Source of the DNA: Spirochaetaceae bacterium
Lineage (GTDB): Bacteria > Spirochaetota > Spirochaetia > Treponematales > Rectinemataceae
Direction: 5' to 3'
Assembly (NCBI GenBank): GCA_025355995.1
Contig: JANXYQ010000134.1
Coordinates: 1-58,441, forward strand
DNA length: 58,441 bases
Under the pieces are notes generated by a model. The model worked only from the letters and a program-made list of their open reading frames with translations. It did not search any database and had not been told where the DNA came from. Both the position numbers and the translations under genes were made by a program. Of this stretch, positions 23,284-53,965 are shown piece after piece; the stretch's first letter is position 1; each line of letters begins with the position of its first letter.

Positions 23284-23297
23284 TAAAATAGCCTAGC

Positions 23298-23331: not shown

Positions 23332-23353
23332 ATATTCTCCCTCGGAGGTCCCC

Positions 23354-24478: not shown

Positions 24479-24483
24479 GGATT

Positions 24484-25353: not shown

Positions 25354-25368
25354 CCTACTCGCCCCGGC

Positions 25369-25397
25369 TTGCATAGGGCGCGGGGCGCCGATATGCT
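25369..25397 (+). promoter_or_regulatory. Possible internal promoter of the GH31 gene
   Basis: TTGCAT (25369-25374) and TATGCT (25392-25397) with a 17-base spacer. The -10 box ends six bases before the ATG at 25404, and no Shine-Dalgarno is present, so the transcript would start at the initiation codon. Confidence 0.4.
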
Positions 25398-25403
25398 TCC
25401 GCT

Positions 25404-27428: not shown

Positions 27429-27507
27429 GCCCTCGGCTTGAATACGCCCCCTCCTTTCGGGTATTTTCGACCTCGCGCCCTCGCGCGCGATAGGCAGGCG
27501 ATCGATC

Positions 27508-30549: not shown

Positions 30550-33500
30550 ATGGCTAAAAACCGCCGATCGGTTTTTGCGCGTATAGTGATAGTAGTCTCC
30601 ATCGCGCTCGGCCTGACTACTTGCGATGCGTTTAAAGCGGGCTTGGGTCCGAAGATCGATATATCCGCGCCGACCGTCGACGTCAGCTCGATCGCGAACG
30701 GCGCCTACCTGAGAGGCACCGTCTCCATTTCCGGCGCCTGCGCCGACGACGTCGCCGTGCAATCGGTGTCGATCATAATCACCATCGACTCGGTGCAGGT
30801 GGCCACCCTGCCCACCACGATCAAGAGCGGCATCTGGACCGCGTCTATGGACACCAAAGCCCTCTCCGGCGGGAAGGAGGTCCAGGCGGACCTCGATATC
30901 CGCGTCACGGACGGAAGCGGCAAGAATACCGACAAGAAGCTTGTGGTATATTTTGATAACGTTGCTCCCGTGCTAACCGGATTGACTCCATCCTCGGCCA
31001 ACCTTTCGAGCTCCGACTATGCCCTGAGCGAGAAGACGACGATCACGGGCAGCGTGAAGGACGGCCTCGGGGTGGCGAAGACCGTGCTGACGGTCGGCGA
31101 CATATCGCTCAGCGATACGACGCATCCCGCCGCCTGGTCCCTCGTCCTCGATACGGCGCAGTTCTACGATACTGCCACGAAGGTGGAGAAGAACGGGGCG
31201 ACGCCTGTCTCCGGCCTCTATAAGGTGGGCTATTCCGTCATCTCCACGGACTACGCGGGCAACACCTCGGAGCCCCTGACCGGCGTCCTCTATATAAACC
31301 CCGACGGAGCGCCCACCGTAAACGTGAGCGACTTGACCGCGGGAGTGAACCCGAGTATCACCTATCCCCGCGCGAGCTCGACGGTCCCGCCCACGAGCTC
31401 GCTCCCGAGCATCGTCGTCCCGGGCTCGACTTTTAAACTCAGGGTATCGGACCTCGACGGCATCGATACCTCCCAGCTCTACGTGGTTCTGACGCGAGGC
31501 TCCGACCTCACGAGCGGCTCAACGGCGGCGCCAACCGCCCTGACGTCCTCCTCCATGGTGTATTGGTATAAAGCCAGCGACAAGACATTAAAGGAAGCTA
31601 TCCTGGATTCCACTACCCTCTCGGGCGGCGGGACCATCCCGACGAGGGCGGAATACAGCTTTACCCTGCCGACGAGCGTAGGCGAGTACCTGCTCCTGAT
31701 CCACGCTGCGGATTACGCCGCCAACAAGATCAGCGGCGTTTCGGTCGAGCGTTACCTGCCTTCCTCGCCTTCGAGCGGTAACTACGCGTACTCCTCGCTC
31801 TATATCACGAACAGTACGACGAACGTGACGATCGACAGTCCCTCCGAGGGCGGCTACAGCTCGGGCACGCTCTCGGCCGGAGGCACGGCCTCTTCCGACG
31901 ACGGGCTCGACAGCGTTACCCTAACGATCAGGAACACCGATACGGCGACTGTGCTGTCGACCGACACGGTGACGATAACCGGAACTCCGACGACCTATAC
32001 CTGGGCCTATCCTAAGTCCGGCCTCGCTGACGGCCATTACTCGATCGCGGCCGTGGCGATGAATCACATCGGCAAGCCCTCGAGCGCGGTGTCGCGCAAT
32101 TTCTCGGTCGATACCAGCAAGCCCTCGGCCACGATCAACGCGCTCGCGGGGAGCCAGAGCGGCAATATCGGCATCTCGGGCGCTTCAAGCGACACGGGCT
32201 CGGGCGTGGAGAAGATCGAGTACAGCCTCGATTCGATCGTCGGCCCCTGGACCGCCGCCGGCGGTACGAGCCCGTGGTCCGGCAGCCTGGACCTGTCCGT
32301 CGCGGCCGAGGGACCGCATACGCTCTACGCCCGCGCCACGGACTACGCGGGCAATGTCACCGCGCAGGCCAGCTACGGGAGCATGAGCTTCGACGTGGAC
32401 AAGGCGAATCCGCAGGCTACGGAAACGAGCCATGGCGCCGCGCTCGTTCAAAGCGCCGCCGCGGTGGGCTTCGCGGGCCAAGCGGACGACGCCGCGGTCA
32501 CGGCGGGAAGGCAGGCGACGAAGGCCGTCCTGAGCTATTCGAAGGACGGGGCGGCGGCCACCTCCCTGACTTTGACGGCCACCGGCTCGACCGGCGGTTT
32601 TGCATGGAATCAGACTACCGGCGCCTGGTCTTGGACTCTCCCGGCTCCGGGCGATCACAGCGGCGACGGCCTTTATACAATTACGCTCGCCGCTACGGAC
32701 TCCGCTAGCAAGACAGCCTCAGTCACACGGACCGCGCAGATCGATACGACGCCCCCGACGCTCGTCGTCTCGGCGCCGCTGGCCAATGAATCGACCACGT
32801 CCAGCGGATATACGATAAGCGGAACCTCCCGCGACACCGGCGGCGTCGGCTTCTCGGGAACGAACGACGTCGAGTACAACCTTAATGGCGTCGGTTGGAC
32901 CTCAGTCGCCCTTACCGGTACGAACTGGTCATCCTCCGTCGCGCTGGGCCCCTCGGAGGGCGCGCAGACCCTCGCCGTCCGCTCGACCGATAGGCTGGGC
33001 AACCAAGCCTCGAGCGGGACACTGAATTTCTTCTACGACCTTTCGCCGCCGACTATGGCCGAGACCTGGGTGGCCGGCGTCGGCAACCCCGCGACCTTCT
33101 CGATGTCGACCAACGCTACGATCGCCTTCGCCGGCACGGTGAGCGATACCGACGCTTTGGCCGCGATCCATGCCTTCCAGGTCAGCATCGACGGCGGCGG
33201 AGCAGTGGATGCGAGCTCGCTCGGAGCTCCGTATACCTATACCGGTCCTGAGTCGAATTGGCACCTCTCCGTCCTAGTGGGCGGCGCCCCCATGGCGGAC
33301 GGCACACATACTTTCGTCTTCACCGCGAAGGATATCGCCGGAAAGACGACGAGCGTGACGCGGACGGTAATCGTGGACACCACGAAACCGGTCGCCGTCA
33401 TCAATACTCCCTCGAGCCTCCCCTCGAGCAATCCGGCGTATTGGCTCTCGGGCCCGACGGCGAGTATCGGCGGCACGGCGAGCGACTCAGGATCCGGGGC

Positions 33501-36500: not shown

Positions 36501-39500
36501 CTCCGCGACCCAGACCCTCGCCTTCAGGATGGACCACAGCGCCCCGGCCATTACGTGGTCAAATATATCGGGCGGCGGCGGGACCGTCGTCCAGGACGCC
36601 GCGCCCAAGATCGGCGGCACCCTCTCCGACGCAAGCGGCATCGCGACCGGGACCGCGACGCTAGAGCGCTACGACTTCGCGACCGCGACCTGGAGCGTGC
36701 TGGCAGGCTGGAACGCGGCCTCCCTCGGCGTCGGCGGGAACCCGACGACATTCCCCTGGTCGGTGGACATCTCCAACTCGGTTACCTATCCCGACGGCAG
36801 GTATCGGATCACGATAGCCTCCTCCGATATCGCTTCGCCCGCGAATTCCGTGGGCGCGGGCCCAGTCGTCTTCATGCTGAGCAGAGCCAACCCGGTCGCG
36901 GCCGTGATAGGCCCGAGCATGGGGAGCTACCAGAACGCGACCCCGGTATTTTGGGGCTCGGCCTCCGATGCCAACGGCGTGACCGCGGTCATCGCCAAGG
37001 CCGCTACCGGGGGGACGGTGGACTTCGGCTCGGGTACGACGAACGCCATCGCCGGCCTCGGCGCCGCTCTCGATCCCGCTACCGACGTTTTCACCACGGC
37101 GACAACGAACGGCCTCGTCAACGGGGACCTCGTGTACCTGTCCTACGCCTCGGGCGGAGCCCTGCCCTCGGCGACGGGAACCGCCATTGCGAGCGCGACG
37201 GGCTACTACGCGGTCAGCGCCACGGCGACGACCTTCAAGCTCTCGCTGACCTCAGGCGGCGCGGCCATCGATTTCACCACCGCGGGCACCGGCCTCATCG
37301 CCGCCTCGTCCCGCTTCTCCTTTGGGGGCACGAGCGTGTATTGGATGGTCCCGGCGCTCAGCCTCGGCGGCGCGCCGGACGGTACGCTGACCGCGTACGC
37401 GCAGGTGACCGCGGGCTCGGCGAAGACCCAGGTAGCGAGCCGCGACTTCACCCTCGACAAGACTTCGCCTGCCATCGCCATAAGCACGCCCTCCGTTGGT
37501 ACCAGGAGCGTGGGCAACCTCGCCATAGTCGGGACGAGCACGGATCCGGGCTCGAGTCCCTCCGGCGTGACCGGCGGCATCCAGTACCAGATCGGGAAGA
37601 ACGCCAGCCTCGGGAATCCCGCGAGCTGGACCAACGCCAACGTATCGGGCGGAGCCTATAGCTGGACGATCAACCTCGGGACGATGTCGCCCTACGCGAA
37701 CGCCACCTACGCGACGCAGTGCGACGCGGCGGGGAACCCGTCGGGCGCCTTCAACCTCTGGAAGCTGCCGATCTATTTCCAGGCGACCGACAACGCCGGC
37801 AACGTGCAGCAGAAGACCGACTACTGGCTCATCCTCGATCCCGACGGGAACATCCCCGTCGTCACCCTGACACAGCCGACGCAGAACGGCCTGACCTACG
37901 GCGGTCAGCAGCGGATAACCGGAACGGCGAGTCAGCCGGTCTGGGTGCATGACGTCGAAGTCGCGGTCGATCCCGCCGGAGGAAGCAACTTCCCGGTAAA
38001 CCCCGTCGGGCTGAGCATCTCGTCCAGCACCCTGACCTCGGCCGGGCATCCCTTCACGAACGGCATGACCGTCTTCTTCGCCGGAACGACGATGCCGCAG
38101 ATCGGCGGGACGAACGTGAGCGCGACGACGCCGTACTTCATCGTGAACGCGGCGGCGAACACCTTCCAGGTGTCCGCCGCTTCCGGCGGCGCGCCGGTCG
38201 CCTTCAGCGCGAACGGCAGCGGCGTCACGGCGAGCGTCTGGGCGCCCGCGACGCTGATAAGCACCGGCAATAACGTGATGTGGTACTACGACATCAACCA
38301 GGGAAACTACTTCCCGCAGGGCGGGGCCTCCAACCAAACGGTGACGATCCAGGTCAGGGCGTGGAATTCCCCGACGGCGGGAGGCGCGCGCGGAACCATT
38401 TCCGGCCTCCTGTCCAGCTCACTGTCCATGAAGTTCGACTCGACCTTCCCGAAGATACAGGGCCTCGAGATAAGCCCCTCCAACAACTATTCCGATCCGC
38501 TCGCCAAGAGCTACTTCAGCCAGATTACGGTCGCGGGAAGCTTCTACGCCATGGGCTACGTCGTCTCCTCCAAGGGAATCGCCAAGATCGAGAAGGTCGA
38601 GGTCAATGTCGGCTCGGGATCGACAACGCTCTACGATACCTCGGTCGCATTCGGAACGACGAACACGGTGATACCCGACGGCACGGCCCATGTAACGCCG
38701 CCCGCCGCGGTCTCCGCGGGCGCCTTCCCCAACGGCGGCAGCTATCAGCTGATGATCACGAGCCTCGGCACGACCGACTGGAACAGCCTGGGCTTCATCG
38801 GGACGGCCGCCGTCGGCGCGGTCTTCAAGCCGAACGGCCTTGGCTCCGGCACGGGGCAAGGCATCCCCTCCGATTCCTCGGGCAATTTCGCCTATCTCGT
38901 CTCTATTCCGATCGCATCGTCGAGCATCTATAACGGCACGTCCGGGGTGTATGCCTTCGACATCCGGGCTACCGACATGACCACGCCCGCGCAAGTATCC
39001 GCCCAGACAGTAACGCTCGACGAGGACAACTACTACCCGAACGGGAGCATCGCCTCCTCGTCCAGCATCGTGGGAAGCCAATTCGTGGTCCAAGGATCCG
39101 CGAGCGACTCGGGCTCGGGCTCAGGTCCCATCTCGGGATTCTCCAAGGTAGTCGTTTACTTCGTCAGGGCGGGCTCCGTGCTCAATCTCGCGACCGGCGC
39201 AAATGGCGCGACCTCGTCGATGACCGCCAAGGACATGAATAACGGCGGTACCATCGGCTCCGTCGCCTATCCGGGGACGGGAGCGAACCTCAAGCTCAGC
39301 ATCGACTCCCTCGCGGAGAACAACGTTCTCCCGACCGCCGGCGGCACGGACTCGAACGGCGACGGCTTCATGGAAAGCCTGACGATCAACGGTTCCTCAT
39401 ACGCATGGGCGGGGCAGATAGATTCCACGAAGATCTCGGACGGCCCCGTCGAAGTGCATTACGTCAGCTTCGACGCGGCGGGCAACGCGACGCATTACGT

Positions 39501-42500
39501 CCAGAGCGCCGTGGTCTCGAATTTCGCGCCCAAGCTCAACATGATCGTCCTGGGGACCGACATGACCGGATCGGGAACCGTCAACACGACGACGAGCTTC
39601 AACAGCAACTTCAGCGCGACCAACTTCATAGTCCGAAATCGCCTCATGTCCTTCCAGATCAATAGCACCTACGGAGGGCAGAACGGAGCCCTGAGCTATT
39701 CGCTCACGAACGGCGGGAACCAGTATTGGGCCAACGCCCCGGCTTCGGGCGAGACGGTGAGCGGCGTGACGGCGAACAGCGCGACCCTGACCCTCGACTT
39801 CACCAAACTGAGCCCGCCCATCCCCGACGCGGCGGCAAACGGGGCGGCCTTTACGCTGACCGTGACCGCTTCGCCGACGGCGGGAGGAACGCAGACCTAT
39901 GTCCAGGTCGTCAACCTGACTATACAAAATACCGACACTACGCCGCCGACTATCGCGATCGCGCCCTTCGGCCAGCGATACAATACGCCGACGGACGCGG
40001 GGAACGGCGGGGTCTATACTGACACGGGGAAAGTCCTGGGGCCCGTTTCGGCCTATACGGACAACGTGGCGACGAGCGGCGCGACCCTCCTGGGCCATGT
40101 CGAGTACGCGACGGACTCCATATTCGCAGATTCCCAGCCGAACCTCTCGGGACAGGTCGTCTTCCGCGGCAAGGTCTACGATAACCAGCGCATCTCGCGG
40201 ATCACGGCTACCATACCCAATTTCGACGGAGGGGGCGGGGCCGGCATCGAGTTCGAAGTCGCGAAGTGGAGCGGAGCGGCCCTAGTGGCCGATACGGGCA
40301 CGAACTGGGCCTTCGCGACCGACTCGGGCTCGGAGGGCGTGAGCCTCCCCGACGGCCATGTCCTCAATTGGGGATTGACCGTGGACACGAGCAAGCTCTC
40401 GACCGTCGCGCAGAAGAGCCTGAACGTGACGTTCAAGGTCTACGACTTCATGACGACAGGAACCGGGGCTAGCCGCTCCGACACAACGCATATGACGAGC
40501 GCGCAGCTTGTGGGGATCGCGGGCATCGTCAACGGCAGCACGCCGGTGTACGTGTACGGCGGAACGACTCCGACCTGGACGATCATCAGCAGCTATACCA
40601 GCGGGACCGGAGCGATCGTCCTCGCGAGCGCCGTGCCGACCAATAATACGAGCTTCATCGTGGCGAACGTCGCGTCCGCCCCCATCGCGGTAGATGTCGT
40701 GCCATATATAGCGAATGTGACGACCGCCCTGTCCTCCGCGTATTCCTCCAAGCCCTCGGCCCTCAACCGCTCGGCGTCCGGCACCTACCCCGTCAGGGAG
40801 GGAGAGACGATCACGTTGAGCGGATTCAACTTCAACGGGACCTCGACGACGGTCTCGCTGAACGGCACGTCGATCACGCCCAGCGCGGGCAGCAGCACGA
40901 GCCTGACTCTTCCTTTGGGCACGACCGCGCTATCGGGAGTGATGGTGGTATCCGTAAGCGCGGTGAGCTCCGCGAACGACTGCAGCATGGCCGTCCTTTC
41001 CTCGGCCACTTCGACTCGGAGCTCGACCACCACGCTGACCAGCCCAGTCCTCGTAGGCATACCGACGGCGACCATCCCGAGCGGAACATCGATGGTCGTC
41101 GGGACGACGGCGGTAGTCATCTCGGCCTTCGACCCCGTGGCGGGAACCGTGACCTTCGCGCCGAGCGTGGCGGTGGGGACCCTGAGCTTCTCGCTATCGC
41201 CGGCAGCCCCCTCCCGCGCGGCGAGAGCATGGAATCAGCTGCCGAACGGTCTCAACAACAGCACCCTCGTGGACGACCTGAAATTCGCCGTATGGAAATT
41301 CAACTCGGTGCTGGCCTCTACCTCCGCAAGATATCCCAGGATGAGGGTTTCCCCCGACGCGGCGCAGCGCGTGGGCTTCTCCTACGACTCAGGGGCCCAG
41401 GAAGTCCACGTCAACAATAACGGCGCGGACGCCAAGGTCGACGGCTCATACACTCAATGGTACGACACCGGGTTCGCCTATGACGCGGCCGGCAACTATT
41501 ACGCGGTGGGCGTGAACGGCGATAGCGGCGGCGGCGGGAGCGGATCGTACAACGCGACCGCGAACAGCGGGTTCTACGCATGGCAGGCGGGAAACGCGAC
41601 CGCGGACGGAAACGGCGGGACGTATACGCAAGGAACCTATAAGGTCCTGTTCGAAAGCGCGTACAACGGGACTTCCTTCGACTCCAACCGCGTGCAGGAG
41701 CCCAAGATCGCGACCTCCGGCGCGGCTAGCCCCTTCGGCATCTACATGACCTACTGGGACAATCTCCAGAACCAGCTCCGCTTCAGGTACGGCACGGTCG
41801 CGACCGGCGGCGTATTCTCCGGCGCCTTAGGAAATCAGCCGAACAGCGGCGAAGGGTCGGCAACCGGCTACCAGACTATCGCCGACACGAGCACGACGGC
41901 CAACAGGGCCGGCGTGTATAGCGCGGTCGGAGTGACGAGCGGAGGCGTGGCGGTGATCGCCTGGTACGACGCCACGAATCGATCCCTCGTGTACAGCTAT
42001 AACGACAACCCGACCCAGACCGCCGGGGCCTCCGTCGCCGCCACCGCGATGGCCGCCGGCAAGCGCTACAGGATACTTACCCTCGGCACGACGAACTTCA
42101 CGACCTACGGCGCCTCGAGCAACACCGTCGGCAACGTCTTCACGGCGACCGGGCCCGGGTTGGGCACGGGAACGGTGACCTACGCGAACTGGCAGGACAA
42201 CGCGACGGTAGTGGATTCAGATTTCGCGGGTTGGTACGTGGATCTCGCGGTCGACGCCGCCGATCATATCCATCTCGCCTATTACAACGCGAGCAACGGC
42301 GACCTGCGCTATGCGTACATCGTGGACTACAAGTCCGCGGCGAGCGCTAAGGTCGCAGCGGTTGATTCCTGGCTGTCGACGGGATCGAGGATATCTATCG
42401 CCGTCAAGGCGAAAGTCATAGGCGGAACGACGTACTACGTTCCATATATTTCCTATTACATGGCCTCGTACACTTCGACGAGCTTCAGCGTACGCGTCGC

Positions 42501-42726
42501 CTGGAGGACCGACGCCGATCTGACGGCCAACGGACAGGGCAACCCGTCGAACGGCGCGTCGTCGGATCTGTTTACGGGAAGCTGGGAGGTAATGAGCATG
42601 CCATCCAGCAACGTGCCCAAGGATTTCACGGTCGGCATAGGTTTCAAGACGTTGGGAGCTGCCGTTAACTCGCCAATACTCGGATATGCGACCAACGCGG
42701 GCCTGGAAACGGCTCAGCTGAAATGA
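30550..42726 (+). CDS. Giant Ig-repeat surface lipoprotein
   Basis: A 4058-residue exported protein. The signal sequence ends LGLTTC, a relaxed lipobox with Cys25. About 24 bacterial Ig-like domains of 95-110 residues follow, joined by hinges of the form (V/I)D-x-x-x-P. They include five tandem copies of a two-domain unit (32107-35283) and three copies of another (35284 to about 37480). Late in the array are four inserted phage-type modules, an IPT/TIG-like domain (about 3412-3490) and a beta-rich C-terminal domain of about 500 residues, possibly a propeller, containing repeated DAAGNYYAVG and DAADHIHLAYYNASNG-type segments. AGGAGGG lies seven bases before the ATG; the frame-open TTG at 30529 is rejected. 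No enzyme motif is seen. A long adhesin or scaffold is inferred. Its stop is six bases from the next ATG. Confidence 0.85.
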   Translation: MAKNRRSVFARIVIVVSIALGLTTCDAFKAGLGPKIDISAPTVDVSSIANGAYLRGTVSISGACADDVAVQSVSIIITIDSVQVATLPTTIKSGIWTASMDTKALSGGKEVQADLDIRVTDGSGKNTDKKLVVYFDNVAPVLTGLTPSSANLSSSDYALSEKTTITGSVKDGLGVAKTVLTVGDISLSDTTHPAAWSLVLDTAQFYDTATKVEKNGATPVSGLYKVGYSVISTDYAGNTSEPLTGVLYINPDGAPTVNVSDLTAGVNPSITYPRASSTVPPTSSLPSIVVPGSTFKLRVSDLDGIDTSQLYVVLTRGSDLTSGSTAAPTALTSSSMVYWYKASDKTLKEAILDSTTLSGGGTIPTRAEYSFTLPTSVGEYLLLIHAADYAANKISGVSVERYLPSSPSSGNYAYSSLYITNSTTNVTIDSPSEGGYSSGTLSAGGTASSDDGLDSVTLTIRNTDTATVLSTDTVTITGTPTTYTWAYPKSGLADGHYSIAAVAMNHIGKPSSAVSRNFSVDTSKPSATINALAGSQSGNIGISGASSDTGSGVEKIEYSLDSIVGPWTAAGGTSPWSGSLDLSVAAEGPHTLYARATDYAGNVTAQASYGSMSFDVDKANPQATETSHGAALVQSAAAVGFAGQADDAAVTAGRQATKAVLSYSKDGAAATSLTLTATGSTGGFAWNQTTGAWSWTLPAPGDHSGDGLYTITLAATDSASKTASVTRTAQIDTTPPTLVVSAPLANESTTSSGYTISGTSRDTGGVGFSGTNDVEYNLNGVGWTSVALTGTNWSSSVALGPSEGAQTLAVRSTDRLGNQASSGTLNFFYDLSPPTMAETWVAGVGNPATFSMSTNATIAFAGTVSDTDALAAIHAFQVSIDGGGAVDASSLGAPYTYTGPESNWHLSVLVGGAPMADGTHTFVFTAKDIAGKTTSVTRTVIVDTTKPVAVINTPSSLPSSNPAYWLSGPTASIGGTASDSGSGASGVANVYYTTAAKGAGQPAFSTSTWTLAAGAANWNGTIKLTGAGSIGEGEFTLYVAAVDAVGNIQTPTSRDFGVDQSDPTVSEGHSASSATKLAFTLSGSIGDTNALAALTVTEKKGASAPESVTIAAPAIVSGTGPTAWSTISLPIHGLTDGSYLYTITVTDVAGKTSQLTRTVKIDLTPPTVAINAIPAWISGSAYTVSGTGGDPIVSLNASGVSAIANNLDGAGWTNAAWVDTSGGANTSGTWSATLTGLTEGSHSIQVQATDAAANACAPVLASFGVDFSPPSLSETAIGVTSIVYKNSSFSLSGSASDTNAMAASNSLQVSIDGQAAVNVTALSGKYAGTFVGTAWTISADTSGGTLDGVHTYVITATDVAGKQTAVTRTAFVDTAAPTMTVNAPGASTWIDGVVYAVKGIADDGTGSGVDKVYFRIDDAATDHSTDDPTTWTLAGGTVSWSSSVNFSALAEGNKKLWVKSVDKAGNWNASATTVLFGVDKNPPSLGETAINTTTQVNRAASFVLSGPIGDSNPDGAAGLSLSLSVDGGAAAAVTFAGATYSKTVTVDTAGHADDGNHTYTLVATDIAGKTTTVVRKVHIDTTAPVSVFGNIASNGSTVILDGVTTKITGTISDATAVASATSTIQFSPDYGTTWNAVESGASLGSPSGTSWNFSKDLTGAAFSADGMYRSSITAADSLGNSLATMAINFYLDRTNPVVSLAALANAFLNQGFTVTGSASSANLSGVSWWIDGNIPTALPGPFVPGSPYALNIPISAAAIAALSEGSHSVTVQAQSSGGRQAQAVLNFTVDRTAPANTFNNISAAGGTVIQAASPQVIGTATDATGILEVDRRIEHYNGATWDLTSDFAAMGSASGTNYTWTADLSNTVTYPDGQYRITIRTIDRTAPANSATGSSVMFYIDRAAPTAAIASPASGGAYYQGFAVSGTAADANLTSVVAKLDGSTALTVAGTAAWSTSLTTPQVQALSEGPHSITVVATDVAGNSSATQTLAFRMDHSAPAITWSNISGGGGTVVQDAAPKIGGTLSDASGIATGTATLERYDFATATWSVLAGWNAASLGVGGNPTTFPWSVDISNSVTYPDGRYRITIASSDIASPANSVGAGPVVFMLSRANPVAAVIGPSMGSYQNATPVFWGSASDANGVTAVIAKAATGGTVDFGSGTTNAIAGLGAALDPATDVFTTATTNGLVNGDLVYLSYASGGALPSATGTAIASATGYYAVSATATTFKLSLTSGGAAIDFTTAGTGLIAASSRFSFGGTSVYWMVPALSLGGAPDGTLTAYAQVTAGSAKTQVASRDFTLDKTSPAIAISTPSVGTRSVGNLAIVGTSTDPGSSPSGVTGGIQYQIGKNASLGNPASWTNANVSGGAYSWTINLGTMSPYANATYATQCDAAGNPSGAFNLWKLPIYFQATDNAGNVQQKTDYWLILDPDGNIPVVTLTQPTQNGLTYGGQQRITGTASQPVWVHDVEVAVDPAGGSNFPVNPVGLSISSSTLTSAGHPFTNGMTVFFAGTTMPQIGGTNVSATTPYFIVNAAANTFQVSAASGGAPVAFSANGSGVTASVWAPATLISTGNNVMWYYDINQGNYFPQGGASNQTVTIQVRAWNSPTAGGARGTISGLLSSSLSMKFDSTFPKIQGLEISPSNNYSDPLAKSYFSQITVAGSFYAMGYVVSSKGIAKIEKVEVNVGSGSTTLYDTSVAFGTTNTVIPDGTAHVTPPAAVSAGAFPNGGSYQLMITSLGTTDWNSLGFIGTAAVGAVFKPNGLGSGTGQGIPSDSSGNFAYLVSIPIASSSIYNGTSGVYAFDIRATDMTTPAQVSAQTVTLDEDNYYPNGSIASSSSIVGSQFVVQGSASDSGSGSGPISGFSKVVVYFVRAGSVLNLATGANGATSSMTAKDMNNGGTIGSVAYPGTGANLKLSIDSLAENNVLPTAGGTDSNGDGFMESLTINGSSYAWAGQIDSTKISDGPVEVHYVSFDAAGNATHYVQSAVVSNFAPKLNMIVLGTDMTGSGTVNTTTSFNSNFSATNFIVRNRLMSFQINSTYGGQNGALSYSLTNGGNQYWANAPASGETVSGVTANSATLTLDFTKLSPPIPDAAANGAAFTLTVTASPTAGGTQTYVQVVNLTIQNTDTTPPTIAIAPFGQRYNTPTDAGNGGVYTDTGKVLGPVSAYTDNVATSGATLLGHVEYATDSIFADSQPNLSGQVVFRGKVYDNQRISRITATIPNFDGGGGAGIEFEVAKWSGAALVADTGTNWAFATDSGSEGVSLPDGHVLNWGLTVDTSKLSTVAQKSLNVTFKVYDFMTTGTGASRSDTTHMTSAQLVGIAGIVNGSTPVYVYGGTTPTWTIISSYTSGTGAIVLASAVPTNNTSFIVANVASAPIAVDVVPYIANVTTALSSAYSSKPSALNRSASGTYPVREGETITLSGFNFNGTSTTVSLNGTSITPSAGSSTSLTLPLGTTALSGVMVVSVSAVSSANDCSMAVLSSATSTRSSTTTLTSPVLVGIPTATIPSGTSMVVGTTAVVISAFDPVAGTVTFAPSVAVGTLSFSLSPAAPSRAARAWNQLPNGLNNSTLVDDLKFAVWKFNSVLASTSARYPRMRVSPDAAQRVGFSYDSGAQEVHVNNNGADAKVDGSYTQWYDTGFAYDAAGNYYAVGVNGDSGGGGSGSYNATANSGFYAWQAGNATADGNGGTYTQGTYKVLFESAYNGTSFDSNRVQEPKIATSGAASPFGIYMTYWDNLQNQLRFRYGTVATGGVFSGALGNQPNSGEGSATGYQTIADTSTTANRAGVYSAVGVTSGGVAVIAWYDATNRSLVYSYNDNPTQTAGASVAATAMAAGKRYRILTLGTTNFTTYGASSNTVGNVFTATGPGLGTGTVTYANWQDNATVVDSDFAGWYVDLAVDAADHIHLAYYNASNGDLRYAYIVDYKSAASAKVAAVDSWLSTGSRISIAVKAKVIGGTTYYVPYISYYMASYTSTSFSVRVAWRTDADLTANGQGNPSNGASSDLFTGSWEVMSMPSSNVPKDFTVGIGFKTLGAAVNSPILGYATNAGLETAQLK
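32107..35283 (+). repeat. Five tandem two-domain Ig repeats (A-B)
   Basis: Coding superrepeat of about 640 bp. A-type domains begin at 32107, 32740, 33373, 34030 and 34663; B-type domains at 32395, 33034, 33721, 34342 and 34981. B domains start (V/Y)D-x-x-x-P and share the later (A/S)TDxAGKxTxVxR-type ending; A domains end DxAGNxxxxxxxFxVD. Spacing between B starts is 621-687 bp. Confidence 0.8.
35284..37480 (+). repeat. Three tandem two-domain Ig repeats (C-D)
   Basis: A second coding superrepeat. C-type domains begin at 35284, 35913 and 36529 and share a FxNIxxxGxTVI-type opening and a YPDGxYRI or ADGMYRS-type end; D-type domains begin at about 35620, 36247 and 36877. The period is about 620 bp. 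The third D domain is interrupted by an inserted module (about 37018-37320). Confidence 0.75.
37018..37320 (+). other. Inserted phage-type module 1 in the giant lipoprotein
   Basis: Encodes a segment with the order nGLxNGDlVyL, ALPSATGTAI, GYYAVSATATTFKLSLTSGG and AAIDFTTAGTG. This 'high/low transition' pattern is common in phage tail and structural proteins. It splits the third D-type Ig domain, which resumes at FSFGGTSVYWMV. Confidence 0.5.
38008..38238 (+). other. Inserted phage-type module 2 in the giant lipoprotein
   Basis: Same module type as at 37018: HPFTNGMTVFFAGTTMPQIG, then YFIVNAAANTFQVSAASGG, APVAFSANGSG. It lies within an Ig domain between VDPAGGSNFP and STGNNVMWYY. Confidence 0.5.
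38728..38866 (+). other. Inserted phage-type module 3 in the giant lipoprotein
   Basis: Encodes GGSYQLMITSLGTTDWNSLG followed by a GAVFKPNGLGSGTGQG end. This is the G-x-Y-x-I-T-x-x-G-T-T-D(W/F) module that recurs in phage structural proteins. It interrupts another Ig domain. Confidence 0.5.
42049..42183 (+). other. Inserted phage-type module 4 in the giant lipoprotein
   Basis: Same type as module 3: KRYRILTLGTTNFTTYGASS, then NTVGNVFTATGPGLGTGTV. It interrupts the C-terminal beta-rich domain between PTQTAGASVAA and YANWQDNATV. Confidence 0.55.
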
Positions 42727-42732
42727 CGGGTC

Positions 42733-43842
42733 ATGAATAATAGGATATTTCCCGGTTTCGTCGGAGCCGTGACCCTGCTGGCGGCATTATCCTCCTGCTC
42801 GCCGAAGGTCCAGCTTCGCTTCGAGGCGGGTTCGCCCGCGCTCAAGGCCGAGCTCGTCAGGCTGGCCTCGGTGTACTCGCGCGCGAAGGGCGCAGCCGTC
42901 GCGCTCGCCGATAAGGCCGCGTCGCCTAACGCGACGACGCTAGTCGTCGGATGGAGCCTGCTCCCAGCGGCGGGCGACCCATTGCCGCGGGGGGGCTATG
43001 CGACCGCCGCCGCGTTCGAGCGATGGGCGCGGGACGGCAAAGCCTTCCGCGAGGTGCCCCTTCTTTGGGACGCATGGGGAATTGCGGCTTCGCCCGAGAG
43101 GCTCGCCCCGCTCGGATCGGGGAAGACCTTCGCCTGGAAGGATCGCGGAGCGCTAGGGAAGGCGAGGGTCCCGTTCCTGACGGCCGGAGGAGAGCCAGGC
43201 GTTAGGCAGGCCCTCTTCTGGTCTTCGTGGAAGGACCTTCCCGCGCAGGGCGAGTTGGCAGGCATCGAGTCGGGGGGAGCCGAACGAACGGCGCCCGCGA
43301 GCCGGGCATCGTTCAAGTCCTTCGCGGCCATCGGGAAAGATCCCATCCTCGATCACAATGCCTTTCATTTTAAGTTAGCCGACGCGGACAATTTCGCCAG
43401 GAATTCCCCGGCGAGCCCGCTCTTCGGAAGCTACAGCTGGCAGCGTAGCGTCCCCGGGACGGGGCGCCGCGATTTCCGCGCGCTCGTATATCCGCTCCCC
43501 CAAGGATACGCCATGCCCGTCTCGATGCTTTGCGGCAGGGTGACGGGCACGGGCGCCTCGGCCGCCAAGGCGAGGGACTTCCTGTCCTGGCTCCTCTCGC
43601 CCGAAAACCAAAAGGCCTTGAGCGAGGCGACCGGATACATGGCGGTCAACTTCAACGCCGCCAACCTCGATCCGAACGCGCTCGCGGCGCGCGACGCGGC
43701 CCTCGGCGCCGCATTAGCCGTGCCGATCGATCCCGAGCCCCTGCCCGGGAGCACCGCGCTCTCGTGGGATTCCCTCCTCGCGAAGGTTCTCGCGGCGCCG
43801 TCCGAATGGGAACGAATCTTATCCGACAAGGAATACCGATGA
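42733..43842 (+). CDS. Solute-binding-protein-like lipoprotein
   Basis: A 369-residue protein with a clear lipoprotein signal (LSSC, Cys22). The C-terminal half has the look of a family 1 solute-binding protein: YPLPQGYAMPVSMLCGRVTG and ARDFLSWLLSPENQKALSEA, followed by YMAVNFN. The N-terminal lobe is shorter and more divergent than in transport receptors, so ligand binding may be altered or lost. It starts six bases after the giant lipoprotein stop and overlaps the next gene by ATGA. No permease or ATPase is nearby. It may be a receptor or an accessory subunit of the surface assembly; this is inference. Confidence 0.75.
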   Translation: MNNRIFPGFVGAVTLLAALSSCSPKVQLRFEAGSPALKAELVRLASVYSRAKGAAVALADKAASPNATTLVVGWSLLPAAGDPLPRGGYATAAAFERWARDGKAFREVPLLWDAWGIAASPERLAPLGSGKTFAWKDRGALGKARVPFLTAGGEPGVRQALFWSSWKDLPAQGELAGIESGGAERTAPASRASFKSFAAIGKDPILDHNAFHFKLADADNFARNSPASPLFGSYSWQRSVPGTGRRDFRALVYPLPQGYAMPVSMLCGRVTGTGASAAKARDFLSWLLSPENQKALSEATGYMAVNFNAANLDPNALAARDAALGAALAVPIDPEPLPGSTALSWDSLLAKVLAAPSEWERILSDKEYR

Positions 43843-46800
43843 AGAAATCCAGGTCCCTCGCGGCATCCTTCGCATTCCTCCTCGCGGGGCTGGGCCTCGC
43901 CGCCCAGAGTAGCACGCTCACCCCCGTCGACGGCCTGGATAACTGGAAGTACGGCCTCGACCTGAGCGGCTACAAGAGCGGCAAGTACAACCTCGTCGTC
44001 GAGGGAACGGACAAGGCCGGCAACGTGACGCGGGCGACGCCGATGAACATCTACATCGATCCCAAGGCCGGCATCCCCTTGATCTCCGTCATCAACCCCA
44101 GTCCCTTGATGCGCGTGGGCGGCGACCTCAATATCGTAGGGACCTGCGTTTCCAGCGAGAAGGTCGACAGGGTCGAGGTAAGCCTCGATGGAGGGGAATT
44201 CGTCAAGGCCGAGGGCGGCGAGTTCTGGTCGCTCTACCTGAAGACCGCGGATATTTCCGAAGGCAGGCGTACTATCGACGCGCGCGGCATCGACGCGAAG
44301 GGCAGGACCGGGCCCACGGTCCGCGTCAAATTCGACCTGGATCGCACGAAGCCCCTGTCGACGGTGGACTCGCCCGCGATGGGCAATCTCGTGTCGGGGC
44401 AGATCCGCCTCGCGGGCACGGTCTTCGACGCGAACGGCGTGCGTTCCCTCGAGATATCGCAGGACGGCGGCGTGAAATGGGCGTCCGTTCCCCTGAAGAA
44501 GGGGCGTGATCCGCTTCGGCCTTCCTTTTCTTGGCCCGTCGATACGAGGAAGATGAGCGATGGCCCGATGGTCTTCGCGCTCCGCAGCGTGGATATGGTG
44601 GGCTCTACCTCCTCGGCGGCATACCTGCTCTTCATCGTGAACACGAAGCCGACCATCGAGGTGGCCAGGCCGATGATCGGGCAGGCCATCCACGGCCGCT
44701 TCTCCGTAGTGGGAGCCGTACGCGATGTCGTGGGCGTGAAGCGCCTGTCCTACGAATTCGGCGCCCTCGATAAGGGCGAGATTCCGCTTACGAAGGGAGA
44801 CCCCTTCTTCGTCAAGGAGTTCGACGCCGGCGCGATCAAGGGCGACTCGGTTACGCTGGTCCTCATAGCCGAGGATCCGATAGGCAATATCACCCGCCTG
44901 TCCCGCGCCTTCAAGATCGACCATAAGGCGGACAAGCCCGTATTAAAGGTGCTCGGGCCCTCGGCGCAGCCCGCCGACGCGAAAGCGGCCAAGTCCGGAG
45001 CGGCGATCACCCTGCATGGGGGCGAGATCGTCTGGGGCTCCATCGTCGACTACGCCGGGGTCTCGGCCTTCCGCTGGTCCGTCGACGGCGGCGCGCAATC
45101 CGAAGTGCCCTGCTCGGAGACCTTCTTCCTCGCCTTGCCGCCCCAAGGCGCCGGCAGGCACGCCCTAAGCCTCACGCCCGTGAACGTGAACGGTCTCTCG
45201 GGCGACGCCGTGACCTTGAGCGTGAACATCGATAACGGGCCGGGGACCATCAGCTTCGATCGCATCGCTTCCGCGAAGTCCTCCCGCGACTTCGCGCAAG
45301 GCATCGAGGTGGCCGTGGACTCGAACGAGTCCCTGGAAGGCTCCATATCGGCGCGCAACGCCCCGGTCTCGGCGGAGTATGCCGTCGCCGGCGGCAAGCC
45401 CCGCCCGATCGTCCTCGCTAAGGGCGACGCGCCGGGCGCCTGGCGCTTCCGCATCGCCCTGGACCGTACCTTGCCGTACGGCTTCGCGCCTTTATCGGTC
45501 ATGACCAAGGACGCGATGGGGAACGAGTACCGCGCGAAGGCCCTCCTCTACGTGACGGATTACGCGGTCGCGCGCGAGGATGCGGGCTTCCGCTTCTCGG
45601 ATCCGCGCGTAGGCGAGGACTCTTTCGTCGCCCTAGGCGACAAGCCGCTGCTCGGGGCCTTCTACGGCGGGGAACTCGCCTCCCTCCGCTTCGATCCGCC
45701 TACCGACATCGTCACCGCGAGCTTCGACGGTCGGACCGTCTCGATAACCGCCGCTAAGGAAGGCAAGACCGCCTTGACCAAGATACTGGGCACGACGACG
45801 AAAGGACGCGAGTTCTCGGGCGGGTCCTTTACCTTTATTACGAATTCGACGCCGCCTAGCGTGCGGATCGACTCTCCCGAGGAAGGGACTTGGTTCAACG
45901 CAAGGATGACCGTATCGGGCAAGGCGGCGAACGCCGTAGGCCCCGTCTCCCTGACCTGGCGGCGGCTCCCCGACGGCGAGAGGACAAAGATCGAGCCCAA
46001 GCCGGACGGGTCGTTCGCCATCGAGATTCGAGCCGCCGACATGGGAAGCGGCCCCTTCTCCCTTGAGATAGAGGCCAAGAACGACGCGGGGCTGGCAGCC
46101 CATGCGTATCGCAGCCTCGGCGCGGACGCGAAGGGTCCCGCGCTTCGATTCCTCGCGCCGGAGAAGGGCGCGGCGGTATGGGGACCCGAGGACGTCGCCG
46201 CTATCGTCGATTCGGCCTCCGGCCTCAAGTCCGTGGAATTCGCGGCCGACGGCAAGGCCTTCTCTCCGATAGACGCCGCCGGGATCTATTTCACGCATCG
46301 CGCCGACTTCGCGGCCAATCCCAATGCCGCCTATCGCATCGTGGACAAGGCGGGGAATGTCGCGGTCGGGAGGCCCGAGGTCTCCATTGCTCCCGCGCCG
46401 GCGCGGGCCCCGGCATCGCCGGGGGTATCCATCGACCCGGCCTCGGGCGAGGCCAAGGTCGAGCTCGCGGGAACCGCGGGAGGCCTCAAGGCGAGCCTCC
46501 TCCTGCCGGGACTCGGCGAGGCGGACTACGTCGCCCTCGGCGATCAAGGCGCACCCGCTCCTGCGCGCTTCGCGACGAGGTTCCTCGCCCAGGGCGCCCT
46601 GTCCCTCAAGGGGCAGGCTACCATCGACGGCCAGGTCAAGGCGGTCTCGCTCAGCGTCGACGGGGACGCGACCTACCGCCTCCTCGCCTCGAATAAGGAC
46701 GCCAAGTCCGCGAAGTCCGTCCTGCCCTTCGCCTTTACCGTCGAGGCCGCGAAGCTGCCCGCGGGAGCCGCGCGCTGGACGATCAAGATCGAGGATTTCT

Positions 46801-49800
46801 CCGGCCAATCCTACCTATGCCCCCTCTACTGCCTCTTCGACGCGAAGGCGCCGGCCCTATCCGTAGTCTACCCCGAGCAGGGGATGGCCGCGCTTCCGGG
46901 GCCCTTCCCCCTCGTAATCAAGGCCGAGGACGATAACGGGGTGGCCGCGTGCGAGGTCGCCGTCGGGACCGCGCCAAAGGAAAGCGTCGACTTGTCGACG
47001 CTCTCACGCTATATCGTTCGCATGGTCGATCCATCCGCCGCGGCCAAGGGCGCGCCGATTCAGATCGCGGCTTCGGCGAAGGATGCCGCGGGAAACCAGG
47101 CCTCGCTCGCGCTAAAGTACGGCCGCGACGCCGCGGCCGCAGCGCCTAAGGTCAGCGTCGATTCCCTGGTCGCCGAGGCTGGCGGCCTAGTCTCGGGCTC
47201 GGGCTCGGGCTACGGGGGCGCGCCGGCCCTGAGGGCGAGCATAGACGGGGGCGAGGTCCTCGCGTTCCCCGCGGGCGCCTTCGCCTTCTACTTGCCGGTC
47301 CTGCCCGTCGGCAAGCACGTCCTCTCGATAGAGGCTGAGGGGCTCGCCGCTCCCGTGAAGAGGGAATTCGCGATCAAGGACGCCGTTCCCGCCTTGGGCG
47401 ATTTCAAGATAACCGAAGGAAAGAAATCCTCCCCCTGGACCCCCGGTGCCGATTTCGCCCTCGGGGCCGGAAGCGTATTCTCGGGAAGCGCGTCCTCGTC
47501 GAACGGCCTGGTCGGCGTGAGCCTGTCCTTCAATGGGGGGACTCCCGTGCTCGCCGGGCTCGACAAGGCCGCTCCCGGCGCCCCTCGGCGTTTCTCCGCG
47601 GCCATTCCGGCCGGCCTGCCCTACGGCCGCGTCGCGATCGAGCTGCAAGCCAAGGATTCGGCGGGCCAGGTTGCCCTTGAGCGGATCGAGCTCCATAAAG
47701 TCCTGCCCGCCGCCTCGGGGAGCGACGACGACGAGGGAATGCGCTTCTCCGACGAGAGGATCTCGGAGGCCGACGGGAAGACCGGCTTCCTCCTCGGCCC
47801 CGGGGACAAGCTCGTCGGCCGCTTCAACGGCAGGCCCATCCGCTCGGTATCGATTACGCCGGCTGCGCCTTGCCTCGAAGCCTCCTTCGACGGGAGCGCC
47901 GTCTCGATCCTAGGGAAGGCCGAGGGAGTGGCGCCCCAGGCCGTCCTCGAGCTGACGACCGTCGACGGCGATAAATTCCAATGGGGGCCCTTCTCGGCGG
48001 CGGTCGATTCCGCCGGCCCGAGCCTCGAGCTTAGCTCTCCCTCGGACAATGATTGGGTCAGGGCCGAGCTGAGGGTCGCGGGCAAGGCTTCCGATCCCCA
48101 GGGCATCAGCATCCTCCAGGTCTCGGTAAACGGGGCCGATCCCGTCACCATCGCGGAAGCGGCGGCGCCCGGCGCTAAAGGCGACCTAACCTTCGACAAG
48201 GTCATCCCGCTCGCGGCGGCGCCCGACGGATCTACGAGGATCGACTTCATGCTGCGCAACGGCGCGGGCCGCGAGACTCGTATCAGCCGTTTCATAAACA
48301 AGGACACCGTTCCGCCTATCCTGACCCAGCTCCTGCCCGCTACCGGCGAGAGCGTGAACGGCCTCACGACCTTCGTCGGGGAGGCTTCAGACGCCGGTCG
48401 GCTCGCGAGCGCGGTATTCGTCGTTCCCGTGGAGGCGAAGGTCGAGGCTCCCAAGCCCGAGCCAGCCAAGGTCGAGGCTCCCAAGAGCGCGTCTCCCAAG
48501 GCCGGGAGGCCCTACATCGACGGGCTCATGAGCGAGGCGGCGAAGTCGGCGGCGCCAAAGCCCGCTGATGTTAAGCCCGCCGAGCCAAAGCCCGTAGAGA
48601 CGAAGCCCGAGGAGGTCTCCGGCCTCTCCTTCTTCTCGCGCGACCTCGACCTGGCCAGGCTCGCCCTTCCCCTCCCCGAGGGCTGCGGCTTCGTGGTGAT
48701 CGACAAGGCGGGCAACAAGGCCGTGCTCGCGCCGACGGTCGTCGTCGATAAGGAGAAGGACAAGCCGGTCGCGGATATAGAGACTCCGGCCGAGGCAGAG
48801 ATACTGCGCGGCGATTTCGCGATCTCCGGCGTAGCTTACGATGACGACGGCCTGGCGGCCGCCTATTACAGGGTCGATGGAGGCGCCTGGACTCGGCTCG
48901 AGATTCAGGGCAATAGTTTCTCCGTTCCCGTGGCGCTCAAGGATACGACCGATAACGAGCACACCGTCGAGGTGAAGGCCGAGGATATCTATGGCGTGCA
49001 AGGCGATATCGTGGCCCGCAAGTATAGGATATCCAAGGAAGAACCCACTGCGACGATGACCTCCCCGTCAATCTCCAAGCCGGTCCACGGGATCGTGAAG
49101 CTCGAGGGAACGGCGACCGACGCCAACGGCATCAAGGAAGTCACCGTCTCGATCGACAATAGGACGAGCTACGATAGGCCCGTGGGTACCGATTCCTGGA
49201 GCCTCGGCCTCGATACGACGACCCTATCCGACGGCATCCATGCAGTGGCCGTGCGCCCGGTGGACGACTACGATACCGAAGGCTTCTACGCTTCGATGAT
49301 AACGGTGGACAATACCCCGCCCGAGGCGCACCTGGACCTCCCGCGGGACGGCGACGAGGTTGCCGGGTCCTTCCTGGCGAGCGGACGCGTCTCGGACAAC
49401 CTCGCCATCGCCTCGTCGCGCATCGAAGTGGCGCCGGTGGGCAGCACCGCTCCGCCCGCGATGGTAGTCGATCTGGGCGCCGACAAGATCGTGCAACGCG
49501 TGCTGGACGTCTCCTCGCTAAGGCCGGGGATCTATACGGTACGGCTGATCGTCCGCGACAGGGCCGACAACGAGGGCATCGCCTCGCGGAACGTGACGGT
49601 AACGGGATCCATGCCCCAGGATTCGGTGTCTATCCTATTCCCCGTGGAGGGCGCGCGGGCCTCGGGCAAGCTGCGCGCGCAGGGCCGGGCGATCGTGGCC
49701 TCGGGGGCGAGCACCGTCTCCCTCATGGCGGACGGAACGATACTCGGCACTGCCGAGCCCGACGCCCTCGGCTGGTATTCCATCGACGTCGCCTCCGGCT

Positions 49801-50852
49801 CATTGGCCGACGGGGCGCATGTCCTTAAGGCGAGTACGGGAACGAGGGACGGCCGCGTCTTGGAGAGCGCGGATACGAGGATCGAGTGGGCTTCCCTCGG
49901 CCCTTGGGTCTCGATCGACTCCTTCCCATCGGGCAAGTACCTGGCGTACAGGCCCTACCTGAGCGGCAAGGCGGGCTGGGCGGCCGAGGAGGCGCCGGCC
50001 GGCGACAAGAAGGCACTCGAGGAATACAAGAAGGCGGCGGAGGCCAGGAAGGTCGACGCGGTCGACGTGAGCCTCGACGACGGCCGATCCTTCGTCCCGG
50101 CCAAGGGCAAGGAATCCTGGAGCTTCAGGCTCGAGACCCAGGACTATAAGGAGGGCGCCCTCCATGTCATCGTCAGGGCGCGCTACAAGGACGGCACGAC
50201 CAGGGGCGTAAAGGGCCTGTACTTCCTCGACAAGACTCCGCCCGAAGTCCAGGTGCTCTCGCCCTCGGAGAGCGGCCGCTTCAACGGCGTCCTCCAGCTC
50301 GAGGGGAGGTCCTACGACCTTAACGGCATGGCTTCGGTCGGCGTCGCCCTGCGCAAGGGAGACAAGGCCAGCTACGAGGTGCCGTCCTTCATACAGGGGC
50401 TCTACCTGGACGGGCAGATGCTCGGAGGAACGCTCTGGGAAGCGGGAGTGGGGCTCACCTTCTTCAGCGACAACGTCAAGCTGCAGGGTCTCTACGGCAG
50501 CCAGCCGGACGCGGAGCAGAGCTTCTACGGCGACGTCTTCGGGGCCAAGCTGATCGCCAACCTGCTCTACCTGCCCTTCAATACGCTCCTCGGCCCCGAC
50601 TGGAGTTTCCTGTCGGCCTCGCTCGGCATCGGCGCGAACTTCACCTACTATACGAAGACCCAGAGCGGGAACGGCCTGCTCATCGGCTCGGTCTTCGGGC
50701 AATTCGAGTTCCCGAAGGTCACGCTGAGCGGTGCCGGGGCCTTCAAGAAGTTCTCGCTCTACGCCGAGTACCAGCTCTGGGTGCTAAGCTCGGTGGTCAA
50801 CGGCGGATTCATCCCCAAGGCCTCCTTCGGGGCCCGAATAGGAGTGTTCTAG
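43839..50852 (+). CDS. Ig-repeat protein with C-terminal outer-membrane barrel
   Basis: A 2337-residue exported protein with a signal peptide (about 1-22, GLGLAAQ). Roughly twenty Ig-like domains of 85-105 residues follow, with hinges such as DRTKP, DKTPP and DNTPP. A two-domain segment is duplicated about 715 residues apart (starting near 580 and 1295, each opening with (A/M)xFRFSD or MRFSDER). A Lys/Pro/Glu-rich linker spans about 1532-1595. The last ~150 residues alternate hydrophobic and polar positions (GLYLDGQMLGGTLWEAGVGL, SASLGIGANFTYYT) and end in phenylalanine (ARIGVF), as outer-membrane beta-barrels do. The start at 43839 overlaps the previous stop; the open frame to 43530 is antisense-free overlap with that gene and was dropped. 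An anchor for a surface or periplasm-spanning assembly is inferred. Confidence 0.82.
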   Translation: MKKSRSLAASFAFLLAGLGLAAQSSTLTPVDGLDNWKYGLDLSGYKSGKYNLVVEGTDKAGNVTRATPMNIYIDPKAGIPLISVINPSPLMRVGGDLNIVGTCVSSEKVDRVEVSLDGGEFVKAEGGEFWSLYLKTADISEGRRTIDARGIDAKGRTGPTVRVKFDLDRTKPLSTVDSPAMGNLVSGQIRLAGTVFDANGVRSLEISQDGGVKWASVPLKKGRDPLRPSFSWPVDTRKMSDGPMVFALRSVDMVGSTSSAAYLLFIVNTKPTIEVARPMIGQAIHGRFSVVGAVRDVVGVKRLSYEFGALDKGEIPLTKGDPFFVKEFDAGAIKGDSVTLVLIAEDPIGNITRLSRAFKIDHKADKPVLKVLGPSAQPADAKAAKSGAAITLHGGEIVWGSIVDYAGVSAFRWSVDGGAQSEVPCSETFFLALPPQGAGRHALSLTPVNVNGLSGDAVTLSVNIDNGPGTISFDRIASAKSSRDFAQGIEVAVDSNESLEGSISARNAPVSAEYAVAGGKPRPIVLAKGDAPGAWRFRIALDRTLPYGFAPLSVMTKDAMGNEYRAKALLYVTDYAVAREDAGFRFSDPRVGEDSFVALGDKPLLGAFYGGELASLRFDPPTDIVTASFDGRTVSITAAKEGKTALTKILGTTTKGREFSGGSFTFITNSTPPSVRIDSPEEGTWFNARMTVSGKAANAVGPVSLTWRRLPDGERTKIEPKPDGSFAIEIRAADMGSGPFSLEIEAKNDAGLAAHAYRSLGADAKGPALRFLAPEKGAAVWGPEDVAAIVDSASGLKSVEFAADGKAFSPIDAAGIYFTHRADFAANPNAAYRIVDKAGNVAVGRPEVSIAPAPARAPASPGVSIDPASGEAKVELAGTAGGLKASLLLPGLGEADYVALGDQGAPAPARFATRFLAQGALSLKGQATIDGQVKAVSLSVDGDATYRLLASNKDAKSAKSVLPFAFTVEAAKLPAGAARWTIKIEDFSGQSYLCPLYCLFDAKAPALSVVYPEQGMAALPGPFPLVIKAEDDNGVAACEVAVGTAPKESVDLSTLSRYIVRMVDPSAAAKGAPIQIAASAKDAAGNQASLALKYGRDAAAAAPKVSVDSLVAEAGGLVSGSGSGYGGAPALRASIDGGEVLAFPAGAFAFYLPVLPVGKHVLSIEAEGLAAPVKREFAIKDAVPALGDFKITEGKKSSPWTPGADFALGAGSVFSGSASSSNGLVGVSLSFNGGTPVLAGLDKAAPGAPRRFSAAIPAGLPYGRVAIELQAKDSAGQVALERIELHKVLPAASGSDDDEGMRFSDERISEADGKTGFLLGPGDKLVGRFNGRPIRSVSITPAAPCLEASFDGSAVSILGKAEGVAPQAVLELTTVDGDKFQWGPFSAAVDSAGPSLELSSPSDNDWVRAELRVAGKASDPQGISILQVSVNGADPVTIAEAAAPGAKGDLTFDKVIPLAAAPDGSTRIDFMLRNGAGRETRISRFINKDTVPPILTQLLPATGESVNGLTTFVGEASDAGRLASAVFVVPVEAKVEAPKPEPAKVEAPKSASPKAGRPYIDGLMSEAAKSAAPKPADVKPAEPKPVETKPEEVSGLSFFSRDLDLARLALPLPEGCGFVVIDKAGNKAVLAPTVVVDKEKDKPVADIETPAEAEILRGDFAISGVAYDDDGLAAAYYRVDGGAWTRLEIQGNSFSVPVALKDTTDNEHTVEVKAEDIYGVQGDIVARKYRISKEEPTATMTSPSISKPVHGIVKLEGTATDANGIKEVTVSIDNRTSYDRPVGTDSWSLGLDTTTLSDGIHAVAVRPVDDYDTEGFYASMITVDNTPPEAHLDLPRDGDEVAGSFLASGRVSDNLAIASSRIEVAPVGSTAPPAMVVDLGADKIVQRVLDVSSLRPGIYTVRLIVRDRADNEGIASRNVTVTGSMPQDSVSILFPVEGARASGKLRAQGRAIVASGASTVSLMADGTILGTAEPDALGWYSIDVASGSLADGAHVLKASTGTRDGRVLESADTRIEWASLGPWVSIDSFPSGKYLAYRPYLSGKAGWAAEEAPAGDKKALEEYKKAAEARKVDAVDVSLDDGRSFVPAKGKESWSFRLETQDYKEGALHVIVRARYKDGTTRGVKGLYFLDKTPPEVQVLSPSESGRFNGVLQLEGRSYDLNGMASVGVALRKGDKASYEVPSFIQGLYLDGQMLGGTLWEAGVGLTFFSDNVKLQGLYGSQPDAEQSFYGDVFGAKLIANLLYLPFNTLLGPDWSFLSASLGIGANFTYYTKTQSGNGLLIGSVFGQFEFPKVTLSGAGAFKKFSLYAEYQLWVLSSVVNGGFIPKASFGARIGVF
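48433..48620 (+). other. Lys/Pro/Glu-rich linker within the barrel protein
   Basis: Encodes near-repeats of KVEAPKPEPA and PKPADVKPAEPKPVETKP between Ig domains (about residues 1532-1595). Such linkers often cross or contact peptidoglycan, which would make this the point where the protein leaves or enters the cell-wall layer. Confidence 0.55.
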
Positions 50853-53938: not shown

Positions 53939-53965
53939 CCGCCTAGTATATCAATACATTCGATT

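Follow-up and report, generated by a model that had tools for sequence, protein, structure and literature searches.

Two giant Ig-repeat proteins and a tethered solute-binding-like partner as a candidate cell-envelope system of spirochaetes

Three adjoining genes (P1, P2 and P3) in a 58,441-nucleotide stretch of a Spirochaetaceae genome (contig JANXYQ010000134.1; the whole stretch analysed is referred to as the window) encode two giant Ig-repeat proteins and, between them, a solute-binding-like lipoprotein, and by sequence comparison the set looks like a phylum-wide, conserved system and no one-off surface fibre. We tentatively read it as a conserved system of three parts in the envelope of flagellated spirochaetes, in which P3 would serve as a strut, P2 as a periplasmic partner and P1 as a ligand-binding stalk, an interpretation that we regard as plausible, if somewhat short of probable. 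The spirochaete outer membrane is loose and is held round flagella that turn in the periplasm, and how this is achieved is, to our knowledge, poorly understood. A linked, phylum-wide giant pair with a clear predicted outer-membrane anchor, present in Treponema species and in other families, offers testable genes for that question and shifts the picture from a surface curiosity of a single genome to a conserved system.

Gene layout and domain make-up

The earlier note on this DNA had described three tightly coupled genes, and the frames, the lengths, the 6-bp gap between P1 and P2 and the ATGA overlap at the P2-P3 junction all proved exact. The ATG start codon of P1 has an SD-like AGGAGG 5' of it, and a minus-strand ABC gene converges on the 3' end of P3; the apparent operon therefore comprises exactly three genes, with the following features.

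30550..42726, plus strand: P1, giant Ig-repeat lipoprotein of 4058 aa (ORF, junctions, Big_13 at E 2e-42)
30622..30624, plus strand: P1 lipobox LTTC, Cys25 (sequence; a lipobox-like motif is retained in P1 homologues)
30682..40395, plus strand: P1 Ig-like array, regular to about 37020 and less so beyond (iterated Ig profile)
41275..42723, plus strand: predicted P1 C-terminal beta-propeller, start approximate, with an IPT-like domain before it (homology to the modelled L103 region, Foldseek, alignments)
42733..43842, plus strand: P2, tethered family-1 SBP-like lipoprotein of 369 aa, lipobox LSSC with Cys22 at 42796-42798 (SBP_bac_8, profile links to other P2 groups)
43839..50852, plus strand: P3, Ig array and predicted C-terminal outer-membrane barrel, 2337 aa (ORF, Big_7, orthologue family)
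About 43839-43907, plus strand: P3 SPase-I-type signal peptide (sequence)
43905..50366, plus strand: P3 Ig-like array, 21 profile matches, initial 230 aa strongly conserved (iterated Ig profile, orthologue alignment)
50391..50849, plus strand: predicted P3 eight-strand OmpA/OprF-type beta-barrel (AlphaFold2, structural comparison, loop variability)

Upstream of P1, window positions 21964-30398 hold a sugar ABC transporter and GH31, GH1 and GH20 genes, and a comparable run of gene sizes lies upstream of P1 at loci L046 and L048. Downstream of P3, positions 50849-54838 on the minus strand encode an NMT1-type ABC transporter (permease, ATPase and binding protein) and a UbiA prenyltransferase.

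Both giants were confirmed as Ig-repeat proteins by Pfam scan, with Big_13 in P1 and Big_7 in P3 (E 6e-53). An iterated Ig profile gave about 20 matches in P1 before aa 2160 and a less regular stretch beyond. Alignment of P1 proteins shows conservation over the last 600 residues, and the C-terminal region of one homologue (L103), modelled from ten sequences with the window P1 in the alignment, yielded a moderate model (pLDDT 69.7, pTM 0.60) whose best Foldseek matches were beta-propellers, namely CV39L lectin, GH145 enzymes and sialidases (E about 1e-8). With moderate confidence we assign to the P1 C-terminus a lectin/sialidase-like beta-propeller fold, which had been overlooked in the earlier note. 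C-terminal identity in the same genomes was 28% for P1 versus 48% for P3, and on these alignments P1 is the faster-evolving protein. P1 length ranged from 1803 to 6178 aa, and a test for a fixed relation between P1 and P3 lengths found none (rho 0.27, p 0.12).

Short inserted modules were observed within P1 at window positions 42010-42160, 38700-38880 and 37060-37270. They are of two types, YxIxxxGTTxFxxxGAxxNxxGxxFTATGxGxGTGT and 'YYAVSATATTFKLSLTSGG', and one of them shares about 60% identity with phage virion proteins. In the close relative G001 (L039/L079), four copies lie in the C-terminal part of P1. Contig C1 of G041 holds five P1-type genes (2132397, 2154060, 2242576, 2629923 and 2851001) of up to about 6180 aa, and several of these copies each have their own P2 adjoining.

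P3 consists of about 20 Ig domains (21 matches of the iterated profile over aa 23-2176) followed by the C-terminal region. For the latter, the last 330 aa were aligned with 50 orthologues and modelled with AlphaFold2. The model contains eight consecutive strands at model residues 178-328 (window 50391-50843), with a mean pLDDT of 84.5 and values of mostly about 85-96 in the strands, and its closest known structures over 127-141 residues were OprF (Z 15.1), NspA (Z 14.5) and OmpA (Z 13.6). Nearly all P3 orthologues retain an aromatic-terminated last strand (e.g., FGLRVNVF), and because the P3 C-terminus recurs across the phylum at up to E 1e-160, the barrel is not a chance product. The earlier note had predicted an outer-membrane barrel here and had named the last 150 residues as the place where that prediction could fail; judged by the model, the predicted barrel is correct, and it is small.

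Loop lengths of the modelled barrel varied unevenly among orthologues. Loop 3-4 spans 4-25 residues (sd 5.9) and loop 5-6 spans 4-14 (sd 3.3), the length of turns 2-3 and 4-5 never varies and that of turn 6-7 hardly does, and loops 1-2 and 7-8 are seemingly fixed in the model frame, with variation in the residues right after 7-8. An even strand number places both ends of a barrel on the same side, and outer-membrane barrels keep both ends periplasmic. The Ig array of P3 should therefore sit in the periplasm, because an eight-strand C-terminal barrel would put both termini there and the length-variable loops would be the extracellular ones.

Pfam scans of P3 found Ig-type domains only, with no SLH domain or coiled coil and no match to PF00691 (OmpA-like peptidoglycan-binding), and no known peptidoglycan-binding domain was found in the protein. 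Taken together, the aligned P3 N-termini were too diverse for a pattern search, which worked on a subset of sequences. Matches of P1 and P3 to sulfite dehydrogenase models were set aside, as they reflect a shared Ig-like fold only, and TDE2508 of T. denticola (455 aa, porin-like) was ruled out as a known P3. In family f4 (L064, L066, L069 and L070), a lone P3 has as its neighbours, on the other strand, genes for a response regulator and a hybrid histidine kinase.

Distribution, linkage and the middle gene

Two genome sets, drafts among them, were surveyed: 99 relatives and a phylum sample of 296 genomes (family and genus labels are anonymous codes). Among the relatives, P3 was present in 62 and the P1 C-terminus in 55; 52 genomes had both, 10 had P3 only, 3 had P1 only and 34 had neither. 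The 13 discordant genomes are mostly fragmented drafts, and the 14 genomes with four or fewer contigs were fully concordant (12 both, 2 neither). P1 and P3 lie 25 kb or less apart in 28 of the 52 genomes having both. P3 is usually single copy, and P1 is sometimes multi-copy.

In the phylum sample, strong P3 matches (E < 1e-50) occurred in 66 genomes, including other families of the class and deep branches; named carriers include Treponema ruminis, T. porcinum, T. berlinense, T. zioleckii and Brucepastera. P3 was absent from Borrelia-sized genomes, from the 1.1-Mb genome G039 and from most other families. A P1-type gene adjoins or lies near P3, upstream or downstream and on either strand, in G104, G216, G276, G321, G324, G227, G113 and G149, and the two genes were found adjacent or near each other, in both orders, in the distant families f6, f9, f12, f15, f31 and f44.

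P2 behaved differently in searches. The match to SBP_bac_8 (E 9e-7, 29.3 bits against a Pfam cut-off of 27) and the lipobox bear out its description as a solute-binding-like lipoprotein, yet the window P2 has few direct homologues, and a search for related loci with P2 alone found none because P2 diverges too fast, so that profiles are needed; Pfam alone fails to recognise it in most relatives. By profile, the window P2 matches proteins of similar size whose genes, in other families, lie next to P1 and P3 or between the two. In hhalign comparisons among three P2 groups, the window P2 matched the two others at 97% (E 4e-11) and 92% (E 5e-7) and those two matched each other at 97% (E 2e-10), as against 0.1% for a control of P2 with P3, and one group matches PDB sugar-binding proteins at 4e-19 by profile. 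Of the 22 P2-bearing loci counted below, 13 supplied the profiles and the other nine are independent of them (G276, G032, G089, G061, G098, G060, G059, G035 and G044).

Of 45 loci, 22 have a P2-like gene no more than 600 bases from P1 or P3; for points placed at random in these loci the figure is 2.5%. P2 is on the opposite strand in G002, G003, G104 and G227. The earlier note's proposal that the three proteins belong together thus stands for P1 and P3, whose linkage and co-occurrence extend far beyond this genome in variable gene order; for P2 it stands in part, since about half of the loci lack it beside the other two. A PF10023 putative aminopeptidase lipoprotein adjoins P1 at some loci where P2 is missing (L075:8822-9787, L076:395-1390, L210:18922-19881 and L223:10447-11427), and the middle genes of G009 (L075), L210 and L223 were rejected as P2 for this family membership.

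Most P2 relatives have an N-terminal membrane helix in place of the lipobox. Because of these anchors P2 is unlikely to be the surface cap that had been suggested for it. No permease or ATPase of its own was found at the locus, where the flanking transporters have their own binding proteins.

Interpretation and rival readings

In the reading that we tentatively favour, P3 would be planted in the outer membrane by its C-terminal barrel. Its Ig array would extend from there through the periplasm as a long strut, and the conserved N-terminal tip would bind a deeper-lying target (peptidoglycan, the bundle of flagella, P1 or P2). P2, held by a lipid or a membrane helix and thus facing the periplasm, would be a degenerate sugar-binding protein with a role as partner or sensor and not as a transporter component. 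P1 would be an Ig stalk anchored by lipid and tipped by the lectin/sialidase-like propeller; it would face outward, or at any rate bind a ligand, which its fast evolution fits. The trio would in this way couple the outer membrane, and whatever P1 binds, to the periplasm. The presence of flagellin in all P3-bearing genomes, detailed below, speaks for this reading as well. Several observations run counter to it: P3 has no recognised peptidoglycan-binding domain, five OmpA-type domains elsewhere in the genome could do the tethering, the 20-domain array is much longer than the periplasm is wide, half of the loci are without P2 beside P1 or P3, and the flagellar link has the limits given below. OmpA peptidoglycan-binding domains of G000 were seen in unusually long frames (C71:39400, C30:618 and C62:9858; 1380, 1086 and 1034 aa).

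An unlikely alternative as a whole is a surface adhesin or receptor fibre, in which P1 (by lipid) and P3 (by barrel) both project outward for adhesion or glycan capture and P2 is a binding module. Ig arrays, like lectin/sialidase-like propellers, are characteristic of adhesins, P1 evolves fast, is multi-copy in some genomes and shares modules with phage virion proteins, and a glycosidase and sugar-transporter cluster lies upstream in the window; that cluster, however, is not general among relatives, and P2 relatives are membrane-anchored. An eight-strand barrel, moreover, has no channel for a 2100-residue N-terminal passenger and would leave it in the periplasm. The placing of P1 on the surface is also part of the reading we favour. 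The earlier label of a surface assembly is accordingly doubtful for P3 (barrel topology) and P2 (anchored relatives), which suit its other suggestion, an envelope-spanning receptor, better than a surface fibre.

It is rather improbable that the system is a purely periplasmic scaffold round the flagella, with nothing exposed, in which P1, its lipid inserted in either membrane, and P3 extend along the periplasm and keep the outer membrane attached to the cell body and the bundle of flagella. The topology of P3 and the anchors of P2 agree with such a scaffold, as does the distribution of flagellin: all P3-bearing genomes have it (62 relatives and 66 in the phylum sample), P3 occurred in none of the 19 flagellin-less relatives or the 15 flagellin-less genomes of the phylum sample, and P1 is likewise missing from the flagellin-less relatives. 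This P3-flagella link is a hint only, because the independent flagellin losses are few (one group within family f1, plus families f10/f13) and because many flagellated spirochaetes lack P3, among them Borrelia-sized genomes, G039 and many deep families. Against the scaffold, too, the length of P1 differs by a factor of more than three without following that of P3, and the propeller and fast divergence are more in line with a protein that faces outward. With a similarly low probability, the set may be an ancient, spirochaete-specific trans-envelope machine in which the Ig cables of P3 and P1 and the tethered P2 keep a periplasmic space for the flagella and couple it to surface ligand binding.

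Quite improbable is an assembly or display machine in which P3 and P2 help, from the periplasm, to bring the giant P1 to the outer membrane or to keep it there; the linkage of the three genes and the usually single P3 beside a P1 that can be multi-copy would fit, but the modelled barrel is too small for a translocon and no known chaperone or translocon domain was found. Chance or local synteny of unrelated neighbours, to which the absence of P2 and P1 beside P3 in part of the genomes could point, is very hard to reconcile with linkage in both orders and on both strands across families and with co-occurrence even when the genes are unlinked.

Relation to known envelope proteins

In keeping with the earlier note, no known system of this make-up was found in the open-access literature on treponemal surface structures, Ig giants and propellers. 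By analogy, the nearest known arrangement is the Deinococcus envelope with SlpA and HPI, whose family-defining sequence features the spirochaete proteins lack. SlpA of Deinococcus radiodurans connects outer membrane and peptidoglycan as a trimer of 30-strand barrels with a coiled-coil stalk and an SLH domain (PMC9388160). P3 resembles it in having a C-terminal outer-membrane barrel and a very long N-terminal stalk, periplasmic if its topology is as argued above, and differs in its single eight-strand barrel, its Ig array and the absence of a detected SLH domain. HPI, a Deinococcus S-layer lipoprotein, carries about seven Ig domains; an N-terminal lipid anchor is predicted for it, and no propeller is described (PMC10120038). 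It resembles P1 in that an Ig-like array follows a predicted lipid anchor and in that the same cell also makes a barrel-type tether, whereas P1 is built of tens of domains and has in addition a predicted propeller and, as partner, an SBP-like protein. Like P3 as placed here, OmpM of diderm Firmicutes combines a barrel with an extended periplasmic stalk and so tethers the outer membrane; it is, however, a trimeric porin, and its peptidoglycan-binding stalk is of another type (PMC10628300).

OmpA and OprF share the eight-strand barrel fold with P3 (Z 13.5-15.1), but in them the barrel comes first and a globular peptidoglycan-binding domain follows, whereas in P3 a 2100-residue Ig array precedes the barrel. 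Intimin/invasin (inverse autotransporters) and RTX/Ca2+ Ig-array adhesins likewise join Ig arrays to an outer-membrane anchor; their arrays are exported, which the predicted topology argues against for P3. Intimin has a 12-strand N-terminal barrel, and an autotransporter-type barrel able to export a passenger has about 12 strands, compared with the eight modelled for P3. P2 belongs by profile to the same fold family as the family-1 sugar-binding proteins of ABC transporters, from which it differs in being an orphan beside P1 and P3; among its relatives, moreover, a membrane helix is frequently the anchor.
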